From Verrucomicrobiales bacterium (lineage in GTDB: Bacteria > Verrucomicrobiota > Verrucomicrobiia > Limisphaerales > CANJXF01): a stretch of DNA of 46,347 nucleotides. The position numbers and the translations under genes were made by a program. Positions 18,188-32,197 of the stretch are shown here, piece after piece (position 1 is the first letter of the stretch; each line of letters begins with the position of its first letter). Under the pieces are notes generated by a model. The model worked only from the letters and a program-made list of their open reading frames with translations. It was not told where the DNA came from and did not search any database. The stretch lies in contig CANJXF010000033.1 of the NCBI GenBank assembly GCA_947478865.1, positions 1 through 46,347 of the forward strand, written 5' to 3'.

Positions 18188-19240
18188 CTACTTCCGCGCC
18201 CAGCGCAACTTCGCCGGGCTGGAACGCGGATTAGCCCGTCGTTCTTCCGAAGACGGGCGGAGAATTTCCGGCGCGATTTCGGAATACAAACCCGACTGCA
18301 ACCCCATTTGAAAACTTTTCTTCACGCGCCGGTCTTCCCCGGAATGAAACGTCAGGATTGCGACACGCCCGTTGGGATTCAAGCAGGCCGGCAGATTGCG
18401 GAGGAAAGATTCGAGCGCGGAAAATTCATCGTTCACCGCGATGCGCAACGCTTGAAAAACCCGGCGCACGGTGAGGTCAGCCTCGTCCTTGTGCAGGCGC
18501 GGCAAGGCGGAGCGGATCGCTTTCGTCAACGCGCTGGTGGTGGTGAATATTTTTCCCGCGAGCAGCGGCGCAAGCGTTGAGGCGCGTGGCTCATCGGCAT
18601 TCTCGACCAGCAAAGCGGACAAGGCATCCGCGCTGATTCGCTCGAGAAATGCGGAGGCAGGCTGGCCGCGCTGCGGATTCATTCGCATATCCAGCGGACC
18701 ATGCTGCTTGACGGAAAATCCGCGCGACGGATCGTCGATTTGCATCGAGGAGAGACCGAGGTCGGCGAGAATGATGTCCGCTCCGGAAATTCCCATTGCG
18801 CCCAGCGCCTGGGCAAGTCCGGCAAAATTGCTGCGTTGCACGGAAAAAACTTCTTCACCAAAACCGAGCGCACGAAGACGCGCTTCGGTGCGCGGTAATT
18901 CAATTGGGTCCGCATCGAAACCGATGAGGCGTCCGCCGGGCTGAATGCGCGCCAAAATTTCCTGGGCATGCCCGCCAAAACCCAGGGTGCAATCGACAGC
19001 GATTTCGCCCGGTCTGGGCGCGAGCACTTCGAGAATTTCCGCGACCATGATGGGCCGATGCATTCCGGCTGGCGTTTTTCCCGAAGCCAAAACTTTCGCG
19101 ACGGTTTCCGCGTAGCGCTCCGGATTGTGCTCCTTGTATTTTTCCTCAAAACGACGCGGATTTTTTCCCGAGTAACGCGGGCGGCGGCGATGCGGCACGG
19201 GCAAATCTGACGATGGCTGGACTGGATTCTGTTCGTTCAC
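18188..19240 (-). CDS. rsmH: 16S rRNA (cytosine(1402)-N(4))-methyltransferase
   Basis: The 350-residue enzyme methylates N4 of C1402 in the 16S rRNA decoding centre using S-adenosylmethionine. The core starts with M-H-R-P-I-M-V-A-E-I-L at about residue 60 and has the SAM loop D-C-T-L-G-F-G-G-H (about 84-92), the acidic G-F-D-A-D-P, A-D-L-G-L-S-S-M-Q and the C-terminal F-H-S-G-E-D-R. About 58 extra residues at the N-terminus are Arg/Lys/Pro-rich (R-R-R-P-R-Y-S-G-K-N-P-R-R-F). This type of extension appears in Verrucomicrobia relatives. The start is GTG at 19240. Unusually there is no mraZ, ftsL, ftsI or mur gene next to it. Confidence 0.95.
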   Translation of the reverse strand: MNEQNPVQPSSDLPVPHRRRPRYSGKNPRRFEEKYKEHNPERYAETVAKVLASGKTPAGMHRPIMVAEILEVLAPRPGEIAVDCTLGFGGHAQEILARIQPGGRLIGFDADPIELPRTEARLRALGFGEEVFSVQRSNFAGLAQALGAMGISGADIILADLGLSSMQIDDPSRGFSVKQHGPLDMRMNPQRGQPASAFLERISADALSALLVENADEPRASTLAPLLAGKIFTTTSALTKAIRSALPRLHKDEADLTVRRVFQALRIAVNDEFSALESFLRNLPACLNPNGRVAILTFHSGEDRRVKKSFQMGLQSGLYSEIAPEILRPSSEERRANPRSSPAKLRWARK

Positions 19241-19264
19241 GTGGCGCCTAGTTTGATTTAAACG

Positions 19265-20224
19265 ATGCGCTTTTCAATCGAGAACCGATACACTGCGCTG
19301 GTGAAATTCGGTTTGATTCTATTCGTCGCACTGATGCTCGGCTCGCCCGCATTTGCGCAGGATCAATTGATTGTTCCCGCAGAGGTGGTCGAATCGGCTG
19401 ACCAATTCCTGCGCGAGAACGTGGATAGCTCGGTTCTCGACGCGCTTGGCATCGATGAGGAACGCGCTCGAAAATTTCTCGCGGAACTGGAGCGTCAGTT
19501 TCAAGGTGCCTACGTTTACGACCTTGGCGCGCTCCGGGAGACGGCAAAGCAAATCCTTCCCCTGCTCCAACAATACGAAGAAACCCAGCCCTACGCCGTG
19601 TGGCTGAAATCGCGCCTCGATTATTTCGAGGTCGCAGAAAAGTTGCGCAACGACGCGAGCCGCATTTCCACCAATGCCGCACGCCTTGCGCAACCGACGC
19701 CGAAGGTCGAACGCAAAGCGTGGATTGACGTCATCGAACAACGCCCGATGCCGTCGCTGGCGTTTCAGCAAGTCGCGCAGCTAAAGAAAATCTTCATCGC
19801 AGAACGGGTGCCGCCTGAGTTGGTTTGGATTGCCGAAGTGGAGTCGTCATTCGATGCGAAGGCCCGGAGTCCCGCGGGTGCGGCGGGGCTATTTCAACTT
19901 ATGCCGGTCACTGCGCGGAGCTTGGATCTGTCCGTTGGACTCTTGCGGGACGAACGGTTGCACCCGGAAAAAAACGCGCGCGCTGCCGCACATTATTTGC
20001 GTCAGCTCCACAATCGTTTCCGAGACTGGCGCCTGACTCTGGCCGCCTACAATGCGGGCGAAGGCCGTGTCGCCGAACTCCTCCGGAAACAGAAGGCGCG
20101 CACCTTCGATGAAATCGCCCACCGTCTTCCGGCGGAAACGCAAATGTACGTCCCAAAAGTTGAAGCCACGATTCGCAAACGCGAAGGCCGCTCGCTGGCT
20201 GATTTAAAAATGCCGAAAGCGTGA
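19265..20224 (+). CDS. Periplasmic lytic transglycosylase (SLT domain)
   Basis: The 319-residue product has a signal peptide ending near S-P-A-F-A-Q (31-32). A helical region (about 35-160) precedes a C-terminal SLT domain of the MltD/Slt lysozyme-like fold. The catalytic glutamate is E193 in A-E-V-E-S-S-F-D-A-K-A, followed by S-P-A-G-A-A-G-L-F-Q-L-M-P and later L-A-A-Y-N-A-G-E-G-R-V. These enzymes cleave the MurNAc-GlcNAc bond of peptidoglycan leaving 1,6-anhydroMurNAc. No LysM domain is present. It is divergent from rsmH with only 24 bases between their start codons, so the promoters must overlap or lie inside the genes. Confidence 0.9.
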   Translation: MRFSIENRYTALVKFGLILFVALMLGSPAFAQDQLIVPAEVVESADQFLRENVDSSVLDALGIDEERARKFLAELERQFQGAYVYDLGALRETAKQILPLLQQYEETQPYAVWLKSRLDYFEVAEKLRNDASRISTNAARLAQPTPKVERKAWIDVIEQRPMPSLAFQQVAQLKKIFIAERVPPELVWIAEVESSFDAKARSPAGAAGLFQLMPVTARSLDLSVGLLRDERLHPEKNARAAAHYLRQLHNRFRDWRLTLAAYNAGEGRVAELLRKQKARTFDEIAHRLPAETQMYVPKVEATIRKREGRSLADLKMPKA

Positions 20225-20281
20225 AGTGGGTGAATTAGGCGATTTCAGTTGAGCGGATTTTTTCCACTTTTAAACCGCGAA

Positions 20282-20899
20282 TCAGATTCCGCGCGATCCT
20301 TTGGCATCACCCTTTTGAATCTCATCAAAAAGCCACGCGCGAGCATAGACCCACCAGCGTTTGGCCGTGGCTTCCGAGATGCCAAGAACTTCGGCCGCTT
20401 CTTCAATCTTCAGGCCTACAAAATAACGGAGCTTAACGAGGTCCGCCTGCTGCGGTTCGAGCGCGGCAAAGCGATCGAGCGCATCATTAAGCGCAAGCAA
20501 TTGGTCGTCGGGCGCGGGGCTGGCGATCTCGATTCCATCCAAATCCAGATGTTCCGCCCCGGAACCGCGCCGTTGCCGGCCTTTGCGCCGGGCGCGGTCG
20601 ATGAGAATCCGCCGCATCGCCTCGGCAGCAGCGCCAAAAAAGTGCGCGCGGTTCTGCCAGGATTGCGCGGGAGAGTCCACCAGTTTTAGCCAGGCCTCGT
20701 GGACAAGCGCGGTCGGCTGAAGGGTGTGGCCGGCAGGCTCATTGGACATTTTGCACGCGGCCAGGCGACGCAGCTCATGGTAAACAATCGGCAGCAATTC
20801 GTCAGTGGCCTTGGCGTCGCCCTGCTCGATCGCGGTGAGGATGTGTGTGACGTCGCTCATTTGGCGCTTCGTCCACGATGGCGGTTGATGCGGCGGCAT
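20282..20899 (-). CDS. ECF-family RNA polymerase sigma factor
   Basis: The 205-residue protein belongs to the sigma-70 ECF group found in Planctomycetes and Verrucomicrobia (Pfam 07638). Region 2 lies at about 15-95, with D-E-L-L-P-I-V-Y-H-E-L-R-R-L-A and L-Q-P-T-A-L-V-H-E-A-W-L-K-L. Region 4 lies at about 140-190, with L-R-Y-F-V-G-L-K-I-E-E-A-A-E-V-L-G-I-S and T-A-K-R-W-W as the recognition helix. A second ATG at 20860 begins M-S-D-V-T-H-I-L, the usual start for this group, and may be the true one. It is the last gene of a unit whose first gene encodes a Ser/Thr kinase. No anti-sigma factor is adjacent, so control by the kinase is a reasonable inference. Confidence 0.92.
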   Translation of the reverse strand: MPPHQPPSWTKRQMSDVTHILTAIEQGDAKATDELLPIVYHELRRLAACKMSNEPAGHTLQPTALVHEAWLKLVDSPAQSWQNRAHFFGAAAEAMRRILIDRARRKGRQRRGSGAEHLDLDGIEIASPAPDDQLLALNDALDRFAALEPQQADLVKLRYFVGLKIEEAAEVLGISEATAKRWWVYARAWLFDEIQKGDAKGSRGI

Positions 20900-20921
20900 G
20901 ATGCAAGCCTAAGGAGGATCG

Positions 20922-23291
20922 TCATGGCGCAATGGGAATTGTGATTTGGAGCGGAATTTCGCCGCGCAGCATCCTGGAAGCTTCGCTGGCGAGGCGGAGA
21001 TACCAGTCACTCGGCAAGTTGTTGCCATCAATGTCCAACGGCACCCACGAGCCTTGGGCGGGTAGTTCGTTCGCAGTAGGAGCGAGCTTATACATCGCCG
21101 TGCCTTCGTCCACTTCGTCGAACATGGCCCCGTAAATCATCGTGGAGCCGGAGAGTTTCGCGTTGTAAGCCTGCCGCCAGTAGAACGTCCCACCATTGCG
21201 GGGAATCTGGTTCAGCGGGCCGCTATTCAAATTGAACCAGGAGAAGCCCGGAAAAATAACGGGCATATATTCGCGTCCATTTGCGGCGACTTCCGCTAGG
21301 TCGGGCACGATAAGATTTTGGCGGAAGTTGTCCGCGCCGGCGACGTCACCATATCTTCCGACGGACCAGGGGCTGATGATGTCAAACGACCGGAACACGG
21401 CTGCCCAGGCCGGGTCCGATTGCGCATCGTTGTTGAGCGTGCGCCAGTAAGTCGGCAAGCCGCCCATAACCGCCAGACCGGCGCCTTTGAAGAAATTGAT
21501 TACTTCCTGCGCTTGCTGCGGCGTGTCCTGCCGGCCCGAAAATCCAAAACCCCACACCGCGACGACTGGCTTCCCGTTGTGGCGCAGGTAACGGGAGCTG
21601 TTGGTGATTTGGAGCGTGTTCACCAGGTAAAGCCAATCATTGATCAACGCGCTGACCAATGTGTTGGTCGGATGTCCGGAAATATCATACATCAAGGCGA
21701 AGACCCGGCGATAGGCGTCAGCTCCCGCGCGGACGTTGCCCGCCACCTTGTTCATCCGCGCGAAGGTGCTGGCGTCGGAAACCCCGCTGCTAAAGCGTTG
21801 CAGGAAGACGCCATCAAGATGATTGTCTCGCATCCATTTGAAATGTCGAAGCACAGTTTTGGCGTTGTAAGCTGAATAAAGTTTGGCCGGAGCGCCGTTG
21901 GGATACATCATGCTGGTGGAGAAAAGCTCGTCGGGGTCGAGTTCGGAAACATCCGGCCAGAAATCCACCGTCGCATCGGCAGCGGTCGGATTCTGACTGC
22001 GAAACCAGTGAATCCAGCCACTGCTGGCCGAACCATCACCCGGGCAGCCGAACCATCCCTGGTATCCCATCAGCAGCTTGCCAGTCATCGTGCTCGCATC
22101 CACCTCAGGTGCCAGCCGGAAGAATTGCGGTGTGGCGGCAATCGGCAGCGTGAGAACGTTGGAGGAATCGATTGCCTGGATTGCGTTGGTAACATTTGTC
22201 CAGGCGACCGATAAACCGAGGTTGGATGTCCTTTGCACGATCATGCCATCGCCACTCGATGGCCACGACAGAACCGCTTGGCCGCTCACCAGTGTGATAT
22301 TTAGCGCTGGGGCCTGAGGCGGCGCGCTCACACTTACCGAAACGGGCGCGGAGACGGTGGTCGCACCCGTATTGTCGGCGGCAACCGCGGTCAGGACATA
22401 GGAGCCGGAGACCGGGTTGCTCCAAAACGCGGTCCAGGGGCTGGCAAAACTCTCTCCCACTTTGCTGGTGCCAGCAAAGAATTGAACGTTGGTAATTGTG
22501 CCATCCAGATCGGTGGCGTCGGCAGTAATGGGGAGGGCGGCTCCCGAGGCATAAGCGAACGAGCTATTCGCTGGACTGGTAATTCTCACGAGTGGACGCA
22601 ACGTCGCGGTTGAAGCACTGGATTGCGGCGCGGCAAAGTTCACGCTTTTAGTAATCGCGAGATTATCCCATTGCGCCGTAACGGGGTAATACCCCGGCGC
22701 GGTACCGGTCCCGGCAAAGCCATCGTAGAAAATGCGGACGGTGACATTGGTGCCAGTGGAAGAAGTGTTGAAACTCCGATAAACGAAATAGCCTTTGGCG
22801 GCTTCGGAATCGCTGAAGCTGAGAACGATCTGCGGTTCGGACGGGGCATCGTTCAGATCCATGACCGTGCCCGCGTGATTGATTGCATCGCCCATGTTCC
22901 ACAGGTAGGCGCTGAACACATACGCCGTCGCTGGATCGAGGCTGACGGTCTGGCTGAAGCCGGTGGCCGGAGCACTGCTGTTCACCTGCGCGCGGGCAAC
23001 CACACCGCTGTTCATCTCCACCATGTTGGATCCCGAATTGGCATACATGTCCACCGAGCTGCTCCAGCCGGACGGGAAGGGATAATTGGTTCCCACCAGA
23101 GGTCCTTGAAACTGGAAGTCGCCATTGTTGATCAGTTGCACGCGTTCCGTCCCGGGCTTGATGGTGGACAGCTTGAGTTTCGTCTGCGCGACCGCCGGTA
23201 CGGCGAGCATTAACAGGAGGCATGCGAGCATCGCTCGACACGCCAGCAGTGAACTGGTCGGGAATCGTTTTATCCAGGTATCTATTTGCAT
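20922..23291 (-). CDS. Secreted multidomain GH71/GH99-like glycosidase
   Basis: The 789-residue product has a long n-region and signal peptide ending at V-P-A-V-A-Q (about 36). Four parts follow: a carbohydrate-binding-like beta sandwich (about 50-215, starting L-I-N-N-G-D-F), an Ig-like domain (about 230-325, I-T-S-P-A-N-S-S-F and V-Q-F-F-A-G-T-S-K-V-G), a short module ending in F-F-R-L (about 330-395), and a catalytic GH71/99-like domain from about 405 (M-G-Y-Q-G-W-F-G-C-P-G-D-G-S, D-G-V-F-L-Q-R-F, and I-Y-G-A-M-F-D-E-V-D-E-G-T-A). GH71 enzymes act on alpha-1,3-glucan and GH99 on alpha-mannosides; the substrate here cannot be told. It lies between kinase and sigma genes, with gaps of 40 and 22 bases, which suggests coordinated expression. 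Confidence 0.85.
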   Translation of the reverse strand: MQIDTWIKRFPTSSLLACRAMLACLLLMLAVPAVAQTKLKLSTIKPGTERVQLINNGDFQFQGPLVGTNYPFPSGWSSSVDMYANSGSNMVEMNSGVVARAQVNSSAPATGFSQTVSLDPATAYVFSAYLWNMGDAINHAGTVMDLNDAPSEPQIVLSFSDSEAAKGYFVYRSFNTSSTGTNVTVRIFYDGFAGTGTAPGYYPVTAQWDNLAITKSVNFAAPQSSASTATLRPLVRITSPANSSFAYASGAALPITADATDLDGTITNVQFFAGTSKVGESFASPWTAFWSNPVSGSYVLTAVAADNTGATTVSAPVSVSVSAPPQAPALNITLVSGQAVLSWPSSGDGMIVQRTSNLGLSVAWTNVTNAIQAIDSSNVLTLPIAATPQFFRLAPEVDASTMTGKLLMGYQGWFGCPGDGSASSGWIHWFRSQNPTAADATVDFWPDVSELDPDELFSTSMMYPNGAPAKLYSAYNAKTVLRHFKWMRDNHLDGVFLQRFSSGVSDASTFARMNKVAGNVRAGADAYRRVFALMYDISGHPTNTLVSALINDWLYLVNTLQITNSSRYLRHNGKPVVAVWGFGFSGRQDTPQQAQEVINFFKGAGLAVMGGLPTYWRTLNNDAQSDPAWAAVFRSFDIISPWSVGRYGDVAGADNFRQNLIVPDLAEVAANGREYMPVIFPGFSWFNLNSGPLNQIPRNGGTFYWRQAYNAKLSGSTMIYGAMFDEVDEGTAMYKLAPTANELPAQGSWVPLDIDGNNLPSDWYLRLASEASRMLRGEIPLQITIPIAP

Positions 23292-23331
23292 TTTGACGCC
23301 TTAGTGTTGAATTCCAACTAAATCGTTACGG

Positions 23332-26300
23332 TCAGTTTTTTTGGGCAGCGGCTTTCTCCCCGGCTTCGGCCGGATCGAACTCCGCCAGCTTCTTTCGCCA
23401 TTCCGTGGTTTTCCCTGATTGGTCCGTGGCCTCGTAGAGTTGCACCAGGCGTTGAATGCTTTCCTGCAGACGAATTTTGCCCTTGGCGACGATTTTTTCC
23501 TCGCGCCGCTTCATGCCTTCATAACCAGCGAGCAGCAATGGCCCGGCTTCGACGAATTTCTTCTGCCCAAGCAGGCTGCCACCGAGCATGCTCCGGGCGT
23601 TGCACGTCCGCCAGTCGTCGGGAAGGATCTGTTCGCGGAGGGTCAGGCACTCGCGGGCGGGCGGCTCGGCATCGGCGTACTTTTGCTGGACCAGCAGGGT
23701 CCGCGTTAGTTCTGCGAGCACAGCGGTGAGTTGATGAAGGGAATTGGTGACGAACGGATGGTCGTCGCCCGACAGCTTCCTTTCCATGGCCAGCTCTTCG
23801 CGCCACACAGCTCCGGACTCGGCGAGCTTTCCGCCTTGGTAGAGGACATTTGCCAGTGCGCCCAGCGCGACTTCAACCTCGCGATGAACATCGCCAAAAA
23901 GCTTTTTCCGCCTCGCTAATTCCTCGCGCCAAAGGGTTTCCGCCTCCGCCAGCCTGCCTTGCGCGCGGAGGAGGTCAGCCAGCAGGTTGAAAGACGCGAC
24001 TACGTCGGGATGCTCATTCCCGAAAACCTTTCGACGGATTGCCAACGCCTCGCGGATACTGCTTTCTGCTTCGCTCAGCTTCCCTTGATCACGGAGAAAG
24101 ATGGTCAGGTCCGCGAGCGTCCAAGCCACATCGCGATGTTCATTGCCCGATAGTTTCCGCCAAATCGCCACTTCCTCGCGCGACAGCGCCTCGGCTTCTG
24201 CGTGCTGGCCTTGCAGATTGAGGTTCCATGCCAGTAGATGCAGTGACTGGGCCACATCGGCATGTTCGTCGCCCAGAAGTTTCTTGCGGATCGCCAAGGC
24301 TTCACGCGCCTCGGTAACCGCCTCCGGCAGTTTGCCTTGCTCCCGGAGCAGAAAGGATTGACCGCAGAGAGCTGCGGCCACATCGAGATGGTCGCTGCCT
24401 ACCAATTTTATTCGTGCCGCATTCACCTTTTCAGAAAGAGCAATCGCCTGGAGATAGTCAACGGCGCCGGCACGGCCCACCTGTTCTAGCATGGCTACCA
24501 GAGCGCGGGTGGTGTGATGCACCTGATGGTAATAAAATAGTTTCTGAGGCATCTCGGCGGCCAGCGCCGCATACAGCTCAATAGCCGCCCGGTAGTGGCG
24601 CTCGGCCTCCTCCGCTCGTCCGAGTTCGTTGACCACGCCAGCAAGAAACCGGTGGCTGAACGCCTGTTCCTGCCGAAAGTAAGGCTCGGCCGGAAAATCG
24701 TGGGTCGCCTTCTCAAAAACCTGCAGAGCTTCCAGAAACACTCGCTCGGCCTCTACGGCCCGTTGGGTCCTATTCAGCACCTGGCCAAGCTCCCACTGGC
24801 TGTGTCCAAGATGTATGGGGTATTCGGCCACCTGCGTACTATCCTGCACCAGTTGTTTGAACAATACTATGACCTCGCGAAACAGGGGCTCAGCCTCACG
24901 CAGTTTTCCTTGATCCCGAAGGGAGCCCGCCAAGTCGTTCAGCAATGTCGTCACCACCGGATACCCATTGCCCGGCAGTTTTCTGCACCTGGCCAGTTCC
25001 TCGCGGATGACAGACTCAACCTGGCGGGAAACTTTCTCGACCTCTGGTTGCCGACCAGTCCTGGCCAGCAGTTCAACCAACTTCTTCTGGTAGGCGGAAA
25101 CCGTGGGAAAGTCCGCCGCCAATGATTCGTAAAGGCCGATGGCCAAGCCATAAGATTCCCTAGCCTTTTCCATTTCTCCCTGATGCTGCGAGGCATTGCC
25201 CTGCTTGAAATAGGCGGTTGCCATCGCGGACCTGTCCCAGGGGTCCGGCAGTCCCAGGAGGGCCGCCGCCTCCGCCTGATGTTCGCGCAGCGCAATCTCC
25301 TGCACTTCGTCCATCCAACCGATGGATTTGCAGAACCAAAAACGGGCCTCCTCCTGCTTGCCCAGGTGCAAATCGGCCATGGCCATGAAAAACCACTGCC
25401 ATGCACTGCCGCCTCGTTGATTGCATTTTTCAAAGGTCGCCAGCGACGCCTGCCATTCCCCGGCTTTAAAGTGCGCATACCCCAAATCGTGCCACCGGTG
25501 TGTGTTTTGCGGCTCTGCCTCGACCGCTTCCTTGGCCCGCTCGATCGCCGGGTCCGGATGCAGTCGCCACAGCTCTTGGGCCTCCCGAAACAAAGGGTCG
25601 GCCTCGGAATGTTTTCCTTGAGCGCGGAGGGAGAGAGCCAAGTTGTGAAGGGTTCTGGCCAAATCTGGATGCTCGTTGCCCGGCAGCTTTCGGCGCACCG
25701 CCAGTTCCTCGCGATACAGAGTTTCGACCTCGGCTTGCTTGCCTTGACTCTTGAGCACGGCGGCCAGGTTGTTCAGCGACTCAGCTACTTCCGGATGGTC
25801 TGGACTGAACAGCTTTCTCCGCCTGGCTAGAGCTGCGCGGTGCAGGGTTTCCGACTCGGCCAACTTGCCGACAACTTGGAGCAGTTTGGCCAGTTCATCA
25901 AGCGACTCAGCTACAGTTGGATGCTCCTCACCCAACACTTTTCTCTGCATCGCCAGCGCCTCGCGATGCAGGGTTTCGGCCTCAGCCAACCTGCCTTGCC
26001 GGTGCATCACCATTCCGAGGAGGTAGATCGAATCTGCGACGTCTCGATGCTCGTTGCCGAACTGGCTCCGGCGGATCGCCAGTGCTTCGCGACCCAACAT
26101 TTCCGCCTCGGTAAACCTATTCTGACGCAAAATCACCCAGCCCAAAACGTTGATGGATGCGGCCGTGCTCGCATGCTCGTTGCCCAAGGTTTTCCGCTTC
26201 AGCGCCACTGCTTCGCGCAAGAATTTCTCGGCCTCAATCTGGTCGTCAAGGCGCGATCGGGCATCGCCGATCTGATGCAAGGCGTCAGCCACTGCCGGGT

Positions 26301-27981
26301 GTTCCTCACCCAAGCGCGAGCGGCTGACACGCAGGGTTTCACGAGCCATTTCCTCCCGCTGCTTGAACAGCCACAACTCCTCGTAAGTCAGCGTCAGGAT
26401 GGCGCGTAACTCCACTTCCACCTCGGGCTGGTCTTTAAGGTCTTTTCCAATGCGCTCGACGGTCTTATCCAAAATCTCGCGCAACAGGGTCGTGTCCCGA
26501 CCCAACGCGACTGACGGCCCGACGCCTTTGAGCATGTCCTTCATGAATTGGGCGACCTGCTGGCTTTTGGCTGCCTCCGCCTTCGCCTTCGTCTCATTGC
26601 CTTGGGCTTGTTGGCGCAGTTCGCGTTGCAGGTTCTCGGCTCGCGTCGCCCGCATCGCCTGCCAGGTGCTCCCCACCATTCCGAGCACCAGCGCGGTCGC
26701 CACGGCGCTCGCGGCGGCGAAAGCGAGTTTGTTCCGCCGCACCAGCTTCTGAAAGCGATAGCCCGCGCTCGGCGGACGAGCCACCACCGGTTCGTTGTCC
26801 AAGTGCCTTTGGATGTCCGCCGCCAGGCCGTTGGCGGTTTCGTAGCGGCGGGTGCGGTCCTTTTCCAGCGCCTTCATTACGATCCAGTCCAGATCGCCGC
26901 GCAGCAGCGTCCCAAGCCTCGCGGGTTCCGCCTGACGATGCCGGGCCACCGTGGTAAGGTCGGCGGCCAGCAGCGTGCTCAGTCGTGTGGAGGGTCGGGC
27001 CGGCTCCTGCTCGAGGATGATGTGACGCATCGCATCCAATCCGAAGGCCATCAGTTCCTTGGCGTCGAACGGCGTCCGGCCGGTGAGCAACTCGTAGAGC
27101 AGCACGCCGAGCGCGTAAATGTCGGTGCGGGTGTCAATGTCCAGGCTCGTCATCATCGCCTGCTCCGGACTCATGTAAGCGGGCGTGCCCATGAACTGCT
27201 CAAAGGCAGTGAATACGGTCTTGTCGGTCAGGCGCTGCCCGGTGGTGGCCTTGGCAATGCCGAAATCAATCACCTTGGGACATCCGGGCGAACCAGGGTC
27301 GCTGACCGTAACCAGAATGTTCGAAGGCTTGATGTCCCGGTGGATGATCCCCTTCTGGTGCGCGTGCTGGATCGCCTGGCAGACTTGCGTGAAGAGCTTC
27401 AGTCGCTCTTCGGTGGAAAGATTATTCTGGTCGCAGTAATCGGTGATTTTGATCCCGCGCACCAGTTCCATGACGAAGTAGGGCCGGCCCGTCTCCGTCG
27501 CGCCAGCGTCGAACACCTTGGCAATGTTCGGATGATCCATCAGCGCCAGCGCCTGTCGCTCCGCTTCGAAGCGCGCCATCACCGACTTCGTATCCATCCC
27601 CATCTTGATAACCTTGAGCGCAACGCGGCGGCGGACCGGCTCCTCCTGCTCGGCCATGTAAACGACGCCGCAGCCGCCTTCTCCGATTTGCTGGAGCAAT
27701 TTATACCGCCCGATCCGGTCACCCGGCTTCTCGTTGAATCCAGTCAGAACCATAGTTGATGCGTCGCTGATCGACAGATCTGTCGGTGGATGTTCGAGAA
27801 AATCTCCGGCGTTCTCAGCGGAGCGGAGCAAGGCCTCGACGCGACGGCGCAACGGCGTGTCCTTCCCGCAAGCTCCATCGAGATACGCCGCGCGGGCCTC
27901 CGGCGCCGGACGCAGGAGCGCCTCGGCAAACACGGATTGTTCAGGCGATGCAGGTTTCATGGAATTAAGTTCATCGCCCAT
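23332..27981 (-). CDS. Membrane-anchored Ser/Thr protein kinase with long TPR array
   Basis: The 1549-residue product has a helical N-terminal segment (1-80) typical of kinases encoded beside ECF factors in this phylum. A Hanks-type kinase domain covers about 88-395: G-E-G-G-C-G-V-V at 100-107, K123 in A-L-K, H214-R-D216-I-K-P-S-N221, D239-F-G and S-P-E at 271-273. One transmembrane helix lies at about 418-440. From about 530 to 1500 there is an array of kinesin-light-chain-like TPRs of about 42 residues (G-N-E-H-P-D-V-A, L-A-E-A-E-T-L, R-E-A-L-A-I-R-R-K), broken in the middle by a less regular stretch. The TPR part is outside the membrane and probably senses or binds partners. An alternative ATG is 7 codons in, at 27960. 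It heads the kinase-glycosidase-sigma unit. Confidence 0.93.
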   Translation of the reverse strand: MGDELNSMKPASPEQSVFAEALLRPAPEARAAYLDGACGKDTPLRRRVEALLRSAENAGDFLEHPPTDLSISDASTMVLTGFNEKPGDRIGRYKLLQQIGEGGCGVVYMAEQEEPVRRRVALKVIKMGMDTKSVMARFEAERQALALMDHPNIAKVFDAGATETGRPYFVMELVRGIKITDYCDQNNLSTEERLKLFTQVCQAIQHAHQKGIIHRDIKPSNILVTVSDPGSPGCPKVIDFGIAKATTGQRLTDKTVFTAFEQFMGTPAYMSPEQAMMTSLDIDTRTDIYALGVLLYELLTGRTPFDAKELMAFGLDAMRHIILEQEPARPSTRLSTLLAADLTTVARHRQAEPARLGTLLRGDLDWIVMKALEKDRTRRYETANGLAADIQRHLDNEPVVARPPSAGYRFQKLVRRNKLAFAAASAVATALVLGMVGSTWQAMRATRAENLQRELRQQAQGNETKAKAEAAKSQQVAQFMKDMLKGVGPSVALGRDTTLLREILDKTVERIGKDLKDQPEVEVELRAILTLTYEELWLFKQREEMARETLRVSRSRLGEEHPAVADALHQIGDARSRLDDQIEAEKFLREAVALKRKTLGNEHASTAASINVLGWVILRQNRFTEAEMLGREALAIRRSQFGNEHRDVADSIYLLGMVMHRQGRLAEAETLHREALAMQRKVLGEEHPTVAESLDELAKLLQVVGKLAESETLHRAALARRRKLFSPDHPEVAESLNNLAAVLKSQGKQAEVETLYREELAVRRKLPGNEHPDLARTLHNLALSLRAQGKHSEADPLFREAQELWRLHPDPAIERAKEAVEAEPQNTHRWHDLGYAHFKAGEWQASLATFEKCNQRGGSAWQWFFMAMADLHLGKQEEARFWFCKSIGWMDEVQEIALREHQAEAAALLGLPDPWDRSAMATAYFKQGNASQHQGEMEKARESYGLAIGLYESLAADFPTVSAYQKKLVELLARTGRQPEVEKVSRQVESVIREELARCRKLPGNGYPVVTTLLNDLAGSLRDQGKLREAEPLFREVIVLFKQLVQDSTQVAEYPIHLGHSQWELGQVLNRTQRAVEAERVFLEALQVFEKATHDFPAEPYFRQEQAFSHRFLAGVVNELGRAEEAERHYRAAIELYAALAAEMPQKLFYYHQVHHTTRALVAMLEQVGRAGAVDYLQAIALSEKVNAARIKLVGSDHLDVAAALCGQSFLLREQGKLPEAVTEAREALAIRKKLLGDEHADVAQSLHLLAWNLNLQGQHAEAEALSREEVAIWRKLSGNEHRDVAWTLADLTIFLRDQGKLSEAESSIREALAIRRKVFGNEHPDVVASFNLLADLLRAQGRLAEAETLWREELARRKKLFGDVHREVEVALGALANVLYQGGKLAESGAVWREELAMERKLSGDDHPFVTNSLHQLTAVLAELTRTLLVQQKYADAEPPARECLTLREQILPDDWRTCNARSMLGGSLLGQKKFVEAGPLLLAGYEGMKRREEKIVAKGKIRLQESIQRLVQLYEATDQSGKTTEWRKKLAEFDPAEAGEKAAAQKN

Positions 27982-28282
27982 ACATGCGCCATTTAGCGGG
28001 AAAAAGGCTCACGACACACGAAAAGAAAGAAAAAGAAAAATAGCGTGAGCCCTTTGGCCGGAATTTGGCGCATTAAGGGGTGGGACACGATGAGCGTGCT
28101 CCGGCTTGTGCGAGGGCCACCCGGGCGGAACACAGCAAAATCATTACGAAAACCTTATGAAAACAAACTGCATATCGGGCTCCTTGCGGAACCACATTCA
28201 AACTCCGAACCGCGCCGCGGTCATTGCGGATACCGGTCCGTTTCCAAACACATCAACCCAAAACCAGAACCAGAACCAACGT
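27982..28282. other. Divergent region between kinase unit and HAF gene
   Basis: About 300 bases with no confident gene. It holds the nested inverted repeat at 27984-28073 and then a stretch at 28157-28282 that is open in the HAF frame and begins with ATGAAAACAAACT, the same 13 bases as the true start at 28283. The repeat of the start segment suggests a local duplication or an alternative upstream start. Confidence 0.5.
27984..28073. repeat. Nested inverted repeat at the 5' end of the kinase gene
   Basis: Outer arms ATGCGCCA (27984-27991) and TGGCGCAT (28066-28073) enclose inner arms GGCTCACG (28006-28013) and CGTGAGCC (28044-28051). The central 30 bases are almost all purine on the plus strand. 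The outer arm starts two bases upstream of the kinase ATG, so in the mRNA it would occlude the initiation region; as DNA it could be a two-part operator. Either role is inferred. Confidence 0.5.
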
Positions 28283-29476
28283 ATGAAAACAAACTCACTC
28301 CAACTGATCCGCAGTGTCGGCGCGGCCGCACTCCTCGGCCTCATCGCCTCATCCGGCAACGCCCAAACCGCGCCGGACACCGCCGGGCAGCCTGTGAAAG
28401 CCCACCTGACGATCCTGCCGGGCGGCGACCCCGGCACGCCCCGCGGTCTAAAGCTACCCTATGCCATTAACGACCAGGGAACGGTCGTCGGATACTCTCA
28501 GCAAGACGACTTCGTGTACATTGGTGCCCCGGCTGAGCTAACAGCGTTCACGGGGGCTGCGCTCTGGAGCGGCAAAGGCTTTGATTTTAGCATCCTCCCC
28601 GAACCGCCGGAGTCGCCGGCGAGGAGATTCCTGTTCGGTTCGGCCAGCGGGATCAACAACAAGGGTGTCGTCGTCGGCCGCGTAACAGATGATAGCAACT
28701 TTGGTATGGGCTCTACTTCTTCGCGCGCCGTTCGCTGGGACAACGGTGTGCTCACAGACCTCGGAGTGGTCCCCGGTTACGGCCACTCCAGCGCTCGTGC
28801 GATCAACAACGCCGGGGAAATCGCGGGCTCAATTGGAGAGTGGCTCATGACACAGGCGGTGCGCTGGACGCCCTCCGGGCAACTTCAGCAGCTCGACCTG
28901 CTCCCCACCCATAACGCCAGCTATGCCTCTGGCATCAACGCCGCCGGACGGATCGTGGGCTACAGCGGGTTCGAAGACGGCGACTTCACCACGGAACGTC
29001 GCCCAGTCTATTGGGACGGCACGAGCGTGACCGAACTGGCCACATCCGCCGGCTTCAACCAGGGCCAGGCCAACGCCATCAACGCCGCCGGAACCATCGT
29101 CGGCCACTCGGCCGCCTTCGACCTGGACATCTACGACTACACCGCGGTCCGAGCCACGATCTGGACTGAAGGCGTGCCCTCGCTCCTCCCCCTCCTGCCC
29201 GGCTTCTCCGCGAGCTCCGCGTCCAGCATCAATGCCAGGGGCATGGCGATTGGCGCCTGTTACCCCGAACCCTATGAAGCCATCTATGGCTTTGGCGGAG
29301 TCCCCGTCCTCTGGGACAACGGCGAGGTGATCGACCTCCGTCCGCTGCTCGAGCCGTTCTTCCCGGAGGGCTCGCAGTTTTCCGTGAAAGACATCAACTC
29401 CGCCGGACAGATTATAGGGGCTGCCTACGGCCAGGGCTTTGTGCTCACCGTCCCTGCGGCCGCCCATCGCCACTGA
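28283..29476 (+). CDS. Secreted HAF-repeat protein
   Basis: The 397-residue product has a signal peptide (MKTNSLQLIRSVGAAALLGLIASSGNAQ). The mature chain has at least seven copies of the HAF motif, in forms such as A-I-N-D-Q-G-T-V-V-G-Y, G-I-N-N-K-G-V-V-V-G, G-I-N-A-A-G-R-I-V-G and D-I-N-S-A-G-Q-I-I-G-A, spaced roughly 50 residues apart. Between them the chain has phrases like A-V-R-W-D-N-G-V and P-V-Y-W-D-G-T-S-V. Such repeats make extracellular propeller-like proteins of unknown function. No PEP-CTERM or other anchor is seen at the C-terminus. The ATG at 28283 fits the signal peptide; an in-frame ATG at 28157 would precede it by 42 residues without any signal character. Confidence 0.8.
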   Translation: MKTNSLQLIRSVGAAALLGLIASSGNAQTAPDTAGQPVKAHLTILPGGDPGTPRGLKLPYAINDQGTVVGYSQQDDFVYIGAPAELTAFTGAALWSGKGFDFSILPEPPESPARRFLFGSASGINNKGVVVGRVTDDSNFGMGSTSSRAVRWDNGVLTDLGVVPGYGHSSARAINNAGEIAGSIGEWLMTQAVRWTPSGQLQQLDLLPTHNASYASGINAAGRIVGYSGFEDGDFTTERRPVYWDGTSVTELATSAGFNQGQANAINAAGTIVGHSAAFDLDIYDYTAVRATIWTEGVPSLLPLLPGFSASSASSINARGMAIGACYPEPYEAIYGFGGVPVLWDNGEVIDLRPLLEPFFPEGSQFSVKDINSAGQIIGAAYGQGFVLTVPAAAHRH

Positions 29477-29533
29477 TCGTGGAATGTTTTGAACCCAGGC
29501 GGGCAAACACGCCGGCGTCCGAAGCTTAGCTCT

Positions 29534-31018
29534 ATGAAAACCAACTACTTCTCCTTACTTCTGGCGAATGCCATCTGGGCCATTGCGGTCTTCGGACTCA
29601 TCCCGGTGGCAACCGCACAAACCTTCACGAACCTGCATGACTTCAGCAGCGCGCCCGGCGATGGAGGGATACCCAATGGCGGAATCATCTTGTCGGGCAG
29701 CAAGCTGTATGGAACGACCGCTGGTGGCAGCTCGGGTTACGGCACCGTGTTTACCATCAACCGGGATGGCACGGGTTTCACCCTCCTGCATGACTTTACG
29801 TCAACCGGAGGGGTGATTCCGCGGGCCGGAGTGATCTTGTCCGGCAACGCTCTTTACGGAACAACCACCGTCGGGGGCAGCAATGACAGCGGAACGGTGT
29901 TTTCCGTCCAGACCAATGGCACAGGCTTTAATGTCCTGCATCATTTCGCGACTGCTTCCCCTACTCCTACCGGTCTTTACACCAATAGCGAAGGGTTTAG
30001 CCCGGCCGGCCGCTTTATTCTGGCAGGCGACACGTTCTATGGCACCGCCTATCGGGGCGGCAGTTCGGACAATGGCACCGTGTTCGCCATCCGCACCAAC
30101 GGCACCGGTTTTACAAACTTGCATAGCTTCACGGCCACCTCCGGCGCTACCGCAACGAACAGCGAGGGCGCTCGTCCAACCGGCGGTTTAATATTGGCGG
30201 GCAACACTCTCTATGGGCTGGCGCGTTGGGGCGGAAGTTCGGGCAGCGGCACGGTGTTCAAGATCAACACCAACGGCACAGGCTTTACCAACTTACACAG
30301 CTTTACGGCGCCTTCTGGTTCCAATCAAGCGAACAGCGACGGAGCCGATCCGTCCGGTGAATTGATTTCATCGGGCAACACTCTCTACGGAACGGCAGCC
30401 CAAGGTGGCAGTGCGGGTTCGGGCACGCTGTTCGCCGTCAACACCGATGGGACCGGCTTTACGAACCTGCATCATTTCACGACCGTGCCTCCCATTCCAG
30501 GTCCCTACACTAACAGCGGCGGCGCTGTTCCGTGGGGCGGTTTGACTTTGTCAGGCGGCAAGCTGTTCGGGGCAACAATCAGTGGCGGCAGCCAAGGCTC
30601 GGGCACGCTCTTCGCGATCAACCTCAGCGGCACCGGCTTTGCCACCCTGCTTAATTTTGATGAGGTTGCGGAGGGAGGTGTTAATGGCACTGGAACATAT
30701 ATCCCTGGCAGCTTTTTTTTATCGGGCAACACGCTGTATGGCACCGCTCAGCAGGGCGGCAGCCTGAATTATGGCATGGTCTTCAGTCTTACCCTGCCGA
30801 CGCCACCACCACTGACCGTGCTTCGTTCCGGAGCCAATGTTTTTTTAAAATGGCCAACCAATAGCAGCGATTACCGGTTCACGCTCGAATCCACCACAAG
30901 CCTTAATGTGCCGATAATCTGGAGCAGCGATTTCCCCGCGCCAATCGTTGTCAGCGGTCAGAATTCTGTCACCAATACCATATCCGGCCCGCAGAAGTTT
31001 TACCGACTGGGCCTGTGA
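29534..31018 (+). CDS. Secreted GloVer-repeat protein
   Basis: The 494-residue product starts with a signal peptide (MKTNYFSLLLANAIWAIAVF, cleavage near A-T-A-Q). It then carries about eight repeats of 50-60 residues with the pattern F-T-N-L-H-x-F-T, P-x-G-G-L-I-L-S-G-N-T-L-Y-G-T and G-G-S-S-G-S-G-T-V-F-x-I-N-T-N-G-T-G. This is the Gloeobacter/Verrucomicrobium repeat (TIGR03803), forming a secreted propeller. The last 70 residues are a separate module (V-F-L-K-W-P-T-N, L-E-S-T-T-S-L, Q-K-F-Y-R-L) also found in two other proteins of this window. It follows the HAF gene by 57 bases on the same strand with a similar start (ATGAAAAC-AAC), so the two may be expressed together. Function is unknown. 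Confidence 0.88.
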   Translation: MKTNYFSLLLANAIWAIAVFGLIPVATAQTFTNLHDFSSAPGDGGIPNGGIILSGSKLYGTTAGGSSGYGTVFTINRDGTGFTLLHDFTSTGGVIPRAGVILSGNALYGTTTVGGSNDSGTVFSVQTNGTGFNVLHHFATASPTPTGLYTNSEGFSPAGRFILAGDTFYGTAYRGGSSDNGTVFAIRTNGTGFTNLHSFTATSGATATNSEGARPTGGLILAGNTLYGLARWGGSSGSGTVFKINTNGTGFTNLHSFTAPSGSNQANSDGADPSGELISSGNTLYGTAAQGGSAGSGTLFAVNTDGTGFTNLHHFTTVPPIPGPYTNSGGAVPWGGLTLSGGKLFGATISGGSQGSGTLFAINLSGTGFATLLNFDEVAEGGVNGTGTYIPGSFFLSGNTLYGTAQQGGSLNYGMVFSLTLPTPPPLTVLRSGANVFLKWPTNSSDYRFTLESTTSLNVPIIWSSDFPAPIVVSGQNSVTNTISGPQKFYRLGL

Positions 31019-31097
31019 ATCCTTGGAGCATCAAAGCAATTCCTGTCGGCAACCAGCAACAAATGAACAAACACCCCTTGGAAGCGCAAAAAATCCC

Positions 31098-31285
31098 ATG
31101 AAAAATTCCTGTAAACTGCAAATGACAGCCATCTCTCGCCGTCCTGCTTCGTCCTGCCTGATCCTCCTGATGCTCGCGTTGTGGCTCGGGCCGGGCTCGG
31201 TCCTCGCCCAAGGCAGCGCCACGCTGCTGACCACCTTCACCAATCCCACTTCGGCGTTCGGTGCCAATTTCGGCACCGCAGTGGC
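31098..31285 (+). pseudogene. 5' fragment of a secreted FG-GAP-like repeat protein
   Basis: About 63 residues of a sensible protein start here: a signal peptide (MKNSCKLQMTAISRRPASSC then a hydrophobic core, ending V-L-A-Q) and T-L-L-T-T-F-T-N-P-T-S-A-F-G-A-N-F-G-T-A, followed by V-A-A. In relatives this leads into V-G-x-D-x-V-L-I-G-A, the FG-GAP-type repeat. Instead, after A-V-A-A the sequence becomes the antisense of another gene (31285-31772). The plus-strand frame stays open to 31724 by chance. The gene has thus lost its 3' part at a junction near 31285. Its position, third in a row of secreted repeat-protein genes on one strand, fits its original identity. Confidence 0.65.
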
Positions 31286-31772
31286 GGCAAGGGTTGAGGC
31301 CCGATACGGTTTGTTTCAACGTCACCGGGCCGTCGGTCGGCTTGGGCACAATCACCGGGGCGGAGGCAAAAGTGACCAGGCCATTATTCGCCTCCGTGGG
31401 AAACGGATTAACCATCGCCATGATTCCCCCGCCGAAATACAGACCATTCGTGCCGTGAGGCAACGGGGCGCTGTTATTAATCCCCCCAAGCCCATCGCTA
31501 CCCCAAACCGCATAGCTGCCGACCTGGCCGGAAGCGGTCCAGCCGGAGAGGGACACGGTCGGCGAGAAACCTGTGCCGGTGGCCCAGTAGGAGTAGTTGG
31601 TCGCCACGCCTCCGTCCGCCTCGAAGCTGCCGTTGGAAATCAGGTTCGCAGGACGATTGCCGACGAGGGTGTCGTTCCCTGTGACAGAGAGGATCGATGC
31701 TCTAGAGCACGCCACGCCGGTTGACAGAGCAATGATAAATGCCATTCGGACGGGGAGGTAAGGAATCTTCAT
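31285..31772 (-). pseudogene. 5' fragment of a secreted protein (PEP-CTERM-like N-terminal domain)
   Basis: The first 160 or so residues are coherent: a signal peptide (M-K-I-P-Y-L-P-V-R-M-A-F-I-I-A-L), then L-I-S-N-G-S-F-E-A-D-G-G, W-T-A-S-G-Q-V-G-S-Y-A-V-W and L-K-Q-T-V-S-G-L-N-P. This is the beta-sandwich N-terminal domain (DUF642-like or CBM-like) found in PEP-CTERM-sorted proteins. After S-G-L-N-P it turns into C-R-H-C-G-A-E-I, which is only the antisense of the fragment at 31098-31285. The rest of the gene, including any sorting signal, is missing. ATG at 31772 or 31778 can start it. The frame runs on to 30969 by chance. Confidence 0.65.
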
Positions 31773-31785
31773 AAACATATTATCT

Positions 31786-32197
31786 GCTGCGACCAACAAA
31801 CCGTTGTGCGAGTTGCGCGCATTTTTCCGGGGTATTCCCTGCGGCAAGCAGAGGCGTGAAATCCCCAAAAAGGGCAAGCGCATTTCGTTGTTGATTGAGT
31901 GAGTGAATCTCACGATTGAACGGGAATTGCAAGGGTTTCTGTTTCGCTCGCCAGGAAATTTTGCTCGCGTCTCCGTTGTCACCCGCCCGCAACCGCCGTA
32001 TTCAACAAAAGACGAGGGTGCGCTATTTCTCCAGCGGCACGACCCAGTTGTCCATAATGCAATCTTTGCGCTCCGGCGTGTTCGACTTTTCCCAGGCGCA
32101 TCTCTAGCGCCGCCGAGTCGTGCACGATGTCTTCAAACTCAAAACGGGCAAGCCGGACACCTGCACGAAATTGTTCCGCTTCCGATTGGTGTTGAAT
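31786..32197. other. Gene-poor stretch with a possible decayed fragment
   Basis: About 410 bases without a confident gene. On the minus strand from about 32187 to 32110, a frame reads A-G-V-R-L-A-R-F-E-F-E-D-I-V-H-D-S-A-A-L-E-M-R. A change of frame near 32100 continues it as W-E-K-S-N-T-P-E-R-K-D-C-I-M-D-N-W-V-V-P and ends L-E-K at a TAG (32025-32023). Both halves read like protein and would form one C-terminus if a single-base indel is assumed. The family is not recognised. Bases 31786-32022 hold nothing I can identify. Confidence 0.25.

Follow-up and report, generated by a model that had tools for sequence, protein, structure and literature searches.

Two secreted-protein genes truncated at a common point in a Verrucomicrobiales contig, with a recent deletion as the favoured explanation

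Comparison with homologues, at both the protein and the DNA level, confirmed that gene A on the plus strand and gene B on the minus strand are truncated at the same point of the window (the whole stretch of DNA that was analysed, 46,347 nucleotides). We consider that the best reading of this structure, favoured on balance, is a recent deletion associated with a microhomology, which would have joined the stumps of A and B. The features concerned are the following.

31098-31289, plus strand: 5' stump of gene A, a secreted protein with FG-GAP-type tandem repeats, of which the signal peptide and the first half repeat are left (55% identity to its best relative, G002 C176).
31290-31778, minus strand: 5' stump of gene B, a large secreted protein of which the signal peptide and about 163 residues are left (71-77% identity to its orthologues at loci L048 and L049).
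31281-31288, no strand assigned: 8-base microhomology GTGGCGGC, common to A relatives and the closest B relative in DNA alignments.
31098-31724, plus strand: hybrid open reading frame, A stump followed by B antisense, open up to the stop at 31724, with a negative coding score beyond 31290.
30969-31778, minus strand: hybrid open reading frame, B stump followed by A antisense, open up to the stop at 30969, with a negative coding score past the join.

Two gene stumps and their common break point

Gene A begins with an ATG at 31098 and is coherent as far as F-G-T-A-V-A-A at 31289, where the start of an FG-GAP-type array is recognisable (LLTTFTNPTSAFGANFGTAVAA). Its best relative, a 1118-aa open frame, is 55% identical over residues 12-64, continues with A-L-G-S-D-R-V past the break point of A (ALGSDRVIIGSPW) and carries 7 FG-GAP_2 repeats. 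The A homologues in general go on with (L/V/M)GSDRV and about seven FG-GAP repeats; an intact A would be expected to read FTNPTSAFGANFGTAVAA and then (L/V/M)GSDRV. The 64-residue stump is single-copy in the genome and matched no Pfam family, FG-GAP_2 (PF14312) included; 7 such repeats are found in its homologues. Judged from these homologues, gene A is the stump of an FG-GAP_2 gene and not a working member. The gene directly upstream, at 29489-31018, is intact and encodes a GloVer tandem-repeat protein (TIGR03803, E 6e-72); A thus adjoined another gene for a repeat-rich secreted protein.

Gene B begins with an ATG at 31778 or 31772 and is coherent up to V-S-G-L-N-P at 31290. Its two orthologues, in PSRM01000251.1 (L048/G266, 1695 aa) and JALOTZ010000006.1 (L049/G080, 2011 aa), are 71-77% identical over the stump, contain HYR_4C and HYR domains according to Pfam, and pass straight through the break point with (S/A)ATY(V/L)LDFWTSGED, the continuations being SATYVLDFWTSGED and AATYLLDFWTSGED, respectively. 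In tblastn, the two full-length orthologues matched the window at 31736-31290 and nowhere beyond 31290. Shorter B-like proteins also read past this point, both in genome G103 (TSATYLLDFWTSAED) and in a paralogue on contig C21 of the same genome (PAPSYELSFWVSGEN). The final portion of the B orthologue in PSRM01000251.1 recurs about 1.2 kb downstream (L048:5357-6769), and apparent small toxin-antitoxin-like genes lie between the two copies.

The homology of both genes to their relatives breaks off at 31281-31289. In the DNA alignments, the A relatives match up to 31288/31289 and the closest B relative from 31281. A 301-base DNA query spanning the join found matches in 19 other genomes, none of which crossed the whole join: the A-type matches end at or before 31289, with the exception of a few bases; among the B-type matches, the closest likewise begins at 31281. 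These results bear out the initial annotation in its statement that two half genes meet at one point, and its placing of that point at 31270-31295 was correct. Homologues that either end at the junction or span it, which it had named as contrary outcomes, were looked for, and the count was zero for both. The window contains no Ns, no notable repeats were found around the junction, no insertion sequence copy lies at it, and the pattern of insertion sequence ends is absent from the whole contig.

Codon usage changed at the same place. The score of the A frame fell from +14.1 bits over 31098-31289 to -10.3 beyond it, that of the B frame fell from +46.8 to -14.4 beyond the join, and the frame switch was placed at 31285. 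A control scan over 800 kb of the same genome returned 25 sites that scored above 5, four of which equalled or exceeded the junction. The seven best control sites, as well as site 15782 in the window, all lie within single long intact open reading frames, in which the antisense strand mimics coding sequence. The scan was therefore rejected as independent proof; evidence of the kind used by the initial annotation is not enough on its own, and it is the homologues that decide and on which the reality of the junction rests.

The mechanical open reading frames across the join are 208 and 269 aa long, and what each of them reads after the join is for the most part the antisense strand of the other gene. 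We do not think that the two hybrid frames encode real proteins. This calls for caution in annotation: both would be called as proteins despite the large antisense portion in each.

Microhomology at the join and the age of the B stump

At the break, A relatives have GTGGCGGC or CTGGCGGCA. The closest B relative (G080) encodes G-L-N-P-A-A-T there, with GTGGCGGC as the complement of the A-A-T codons, and in G266, the other B orthologue, the match at this place amounts to only about 6 bases. The presence of GTGGCGGC on both sides, in A relatives and the closest B relative alike, thus supports the guess that a microhomology near G-L-N-P-A-A-T had been used, with the caveat that, measured against this B relative, the join holds one base in excess of the product expected from exact recombination in the 8-base repeat.

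Changes between the B stump and its orthologues fall mostly in the third codon position (86 vs. 37 and 29), and the two intact orthologues differ from each other in a similar manner (79 third-position changes vs. 36 and 32). More protein-changing codons than in the pattern of the B stump were counted for the G103 homologue. By these counts, the surviving half of B is free of decay, indicating that the join is either recent or artefactual.

The missing 3' parts and the origin of the join

The genome that was searched comprises 4.40 Mb in 114 contigs and is 97.3% complete. A query with the FG-GAP array for the 3' part of A returned only the stump, and a query with the 1528-residue tail of B returned only paralogues, with identity of at most about 50%. 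It had been proposed that the missing 3' halves be sought elsewhere, possibly joined to each other; neither half was found in this assembly. Plasmid records gave no match. Contig C106 was rejected as the site of the 3' half of B, as it holds a complete 677-aa paralogue. Contigs C21 and C103 were likewise rejected as lost halves, since they carry one separate B-like gene, about 44% identical, that is split by an ISL3-type element. The A and B families never occurred together in 320 genomes of the order at the thresholds used, and neighbouring copies of A and B were found in no relative, which counts against a deletion.

The split gene on these two contigs is an observation in its own right. A B-like secreted-protein gene is interrupted by an ISL3-family insertion element between L146 (the end of C103) and L136 (the start of C21); each contig reaches about 148 bases into the element, and GGCAAACA on both flanks is a candidate 8-base target duplication. 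A near-complete copy (L145 360-1694, C25:57259-58593) has the ends GGTTCCTCGACGTTTGTAATGGGTA and GCTTCTTCGACGTTTGTAATGGGTA and encodes a 424-aa transposase with DDE_Tnp_ISL3 (E 8e-59). Matches to the element ends numbered 23, most of them near contig ends, indicating that such elements cause many assembly breaks.

From a stump-to-stump arrangement of half genes alone, neither an inversion nor a chimera follows, because a deletion between convergent genes suffices; what distinguishes deletion from the other two is whether the 3' halves are present. In the proposed parent state, A on the plus strand and B on the minus strand would have been convergent neighbours. A deletion from within the first repeat of A to within B would then have removed both 3' parts together with the intervening DNA, some 6-9 kb if A and B had the length of the long forms seen in relatives, and would have fused the two 5' stumps head on. 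Two copies of GTGGCGGC on the plus strand would be direct repeats, and a break in or beside this 8-base repeat would fit a deletion by replication slippage or microhomology end joining. Such a one-step deletion gives the structure seen and leaves no 3' halves, which matches the genome: the segment that would have been deleted is absent from the assembly. The former convergence of A and B, the presence of the join in cells and the repair route are inferred. The undecayed B stump suggests that the event was young, although its freshness fits an artefact just as well. Had intact alleles been common in the reads, they would presumably have forked the assembly path and broken the contig here. The initial annotation held that the structure needs an inversion or a chimeric join, a claim that finds no support, since deletion between convergent neighbours yields the same product without a reciprocal one. 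It omitted deletion, the simplest of the four processes (deletion, inversion, chimera and natural ends) and genome damage of an ordinary kind.

A chimeric join of two unrelated loci is a serious but tentative alternative. It could have arisen by template switching during library preparation or amplification, by contig extension or by gap closing, the 3' parts then residing in unbinned or uncovered sequence. Microhomology is also typical of the joins in template-switch chimeras, and its occurrence here speaks for an artefact in that respect, as does the undecayed state of both stumps (the codon-position counts were made for B). The genome is fragmented, and for species at low or intermediate coverage the formation of chimeric contigs has been documented (PMC7881036). 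In relatives, some of the A homologues are located at the ends of contigs (G002 C176, G122 C122 and G032 C185), so this type of gene may assemble badly. Furthermore, the tetranucleotide shift at the join reached the 98th percentile of random places at 5 kb and the 95th at 10 kb, but it was ordinary at 15 kb (77th percentile), and the contigs of the bin themselves range from 50 to 60% GC. A foreign origin of one side, as judged from tetranucleotides, was rejected on the same figures. Along the window (18188-32000), the G+C content climbs from about 52% to reach 58-61% in the stretch from about 18 kb to 31 kb, and drops to 54% past 32 kb; the junction does not coincide exactly with the change.

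Other observations count against an artefact. Each of the seven best look-alike sites in 800 kb proved to be an intact gene, so joins of this kind are not abundant in the assembly, and a minority chimera would normally be expected to lose to the real path. Contigs ending in copies of one ISL3-type element have 147-149 identical terminal bases in common, which suggests that the assembler relied on very long overlaps, whereas the A and B sequences compared share no 17-base word. An error of word-overlap assembly is therefore unlikely; a chimeric library molecule is possible.

An inversion with its ends in A and B is improbable. The geometry is compatible with it, and had B once been on the plus strand, the 8-base repeat would have been an inverted one. 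However, an inversion should leave both 3' halves joined elsewhere, and the absence of both from the assembly counts against it; the reciprocal join would have to lie in an assembly gap that hides both halves, or to have been lost later in a second event. It is very unlikely that the two short frames represent true short genes with overlapping 3' ends: both frames are open past the join and short B-like forms exist (the C21 paralogue and G103), but every homologue, these short ones included, extends past the join, and the coding scores of both frames are negative beyond it. There is an equally slight chance that the locus is strain-variable or switches between states, of which the join would be one: large secreted repeat proteins would be exchanged or lost, and the sampled population would thereby vary its surface proteins. 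Nothing seen requires this, and the only hint is the other B-like gene of the same genome broken by an insertion element.

Comparison with known systems

What remains of A corresponds to the signal peptide and initial half repeat found in Verrucomicrobia FG-GAP repeat secreted proteins (PF14312 FG-GAP_2), as represented by G002 C176. Unlike these proteins, A keeps only half of one repeat, and the stump alone reaches no Pfam model. In the same manner, the first 163 residues of B are 71-77% identical to the N termini of large Verrucomicrobia HYR-like secreted proteins (PSRM01000251.1 and JALOTZ010000006.1), but B is without the part that contains HYR_4C and HYR, which comprises 1,500-1,800 residues in the relatives. 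With regard to the event itself, the locus departs from the model of deletion between short direct repeats in that the original A-B arrangement is unseen in any relative and the join has one extra base. It resembles the short-direct-repeat deletions that truncate two convergent genes in its abrupt double truncation, in the putative short direct repeat at the join and in an assembly that holds no reciprocal product.
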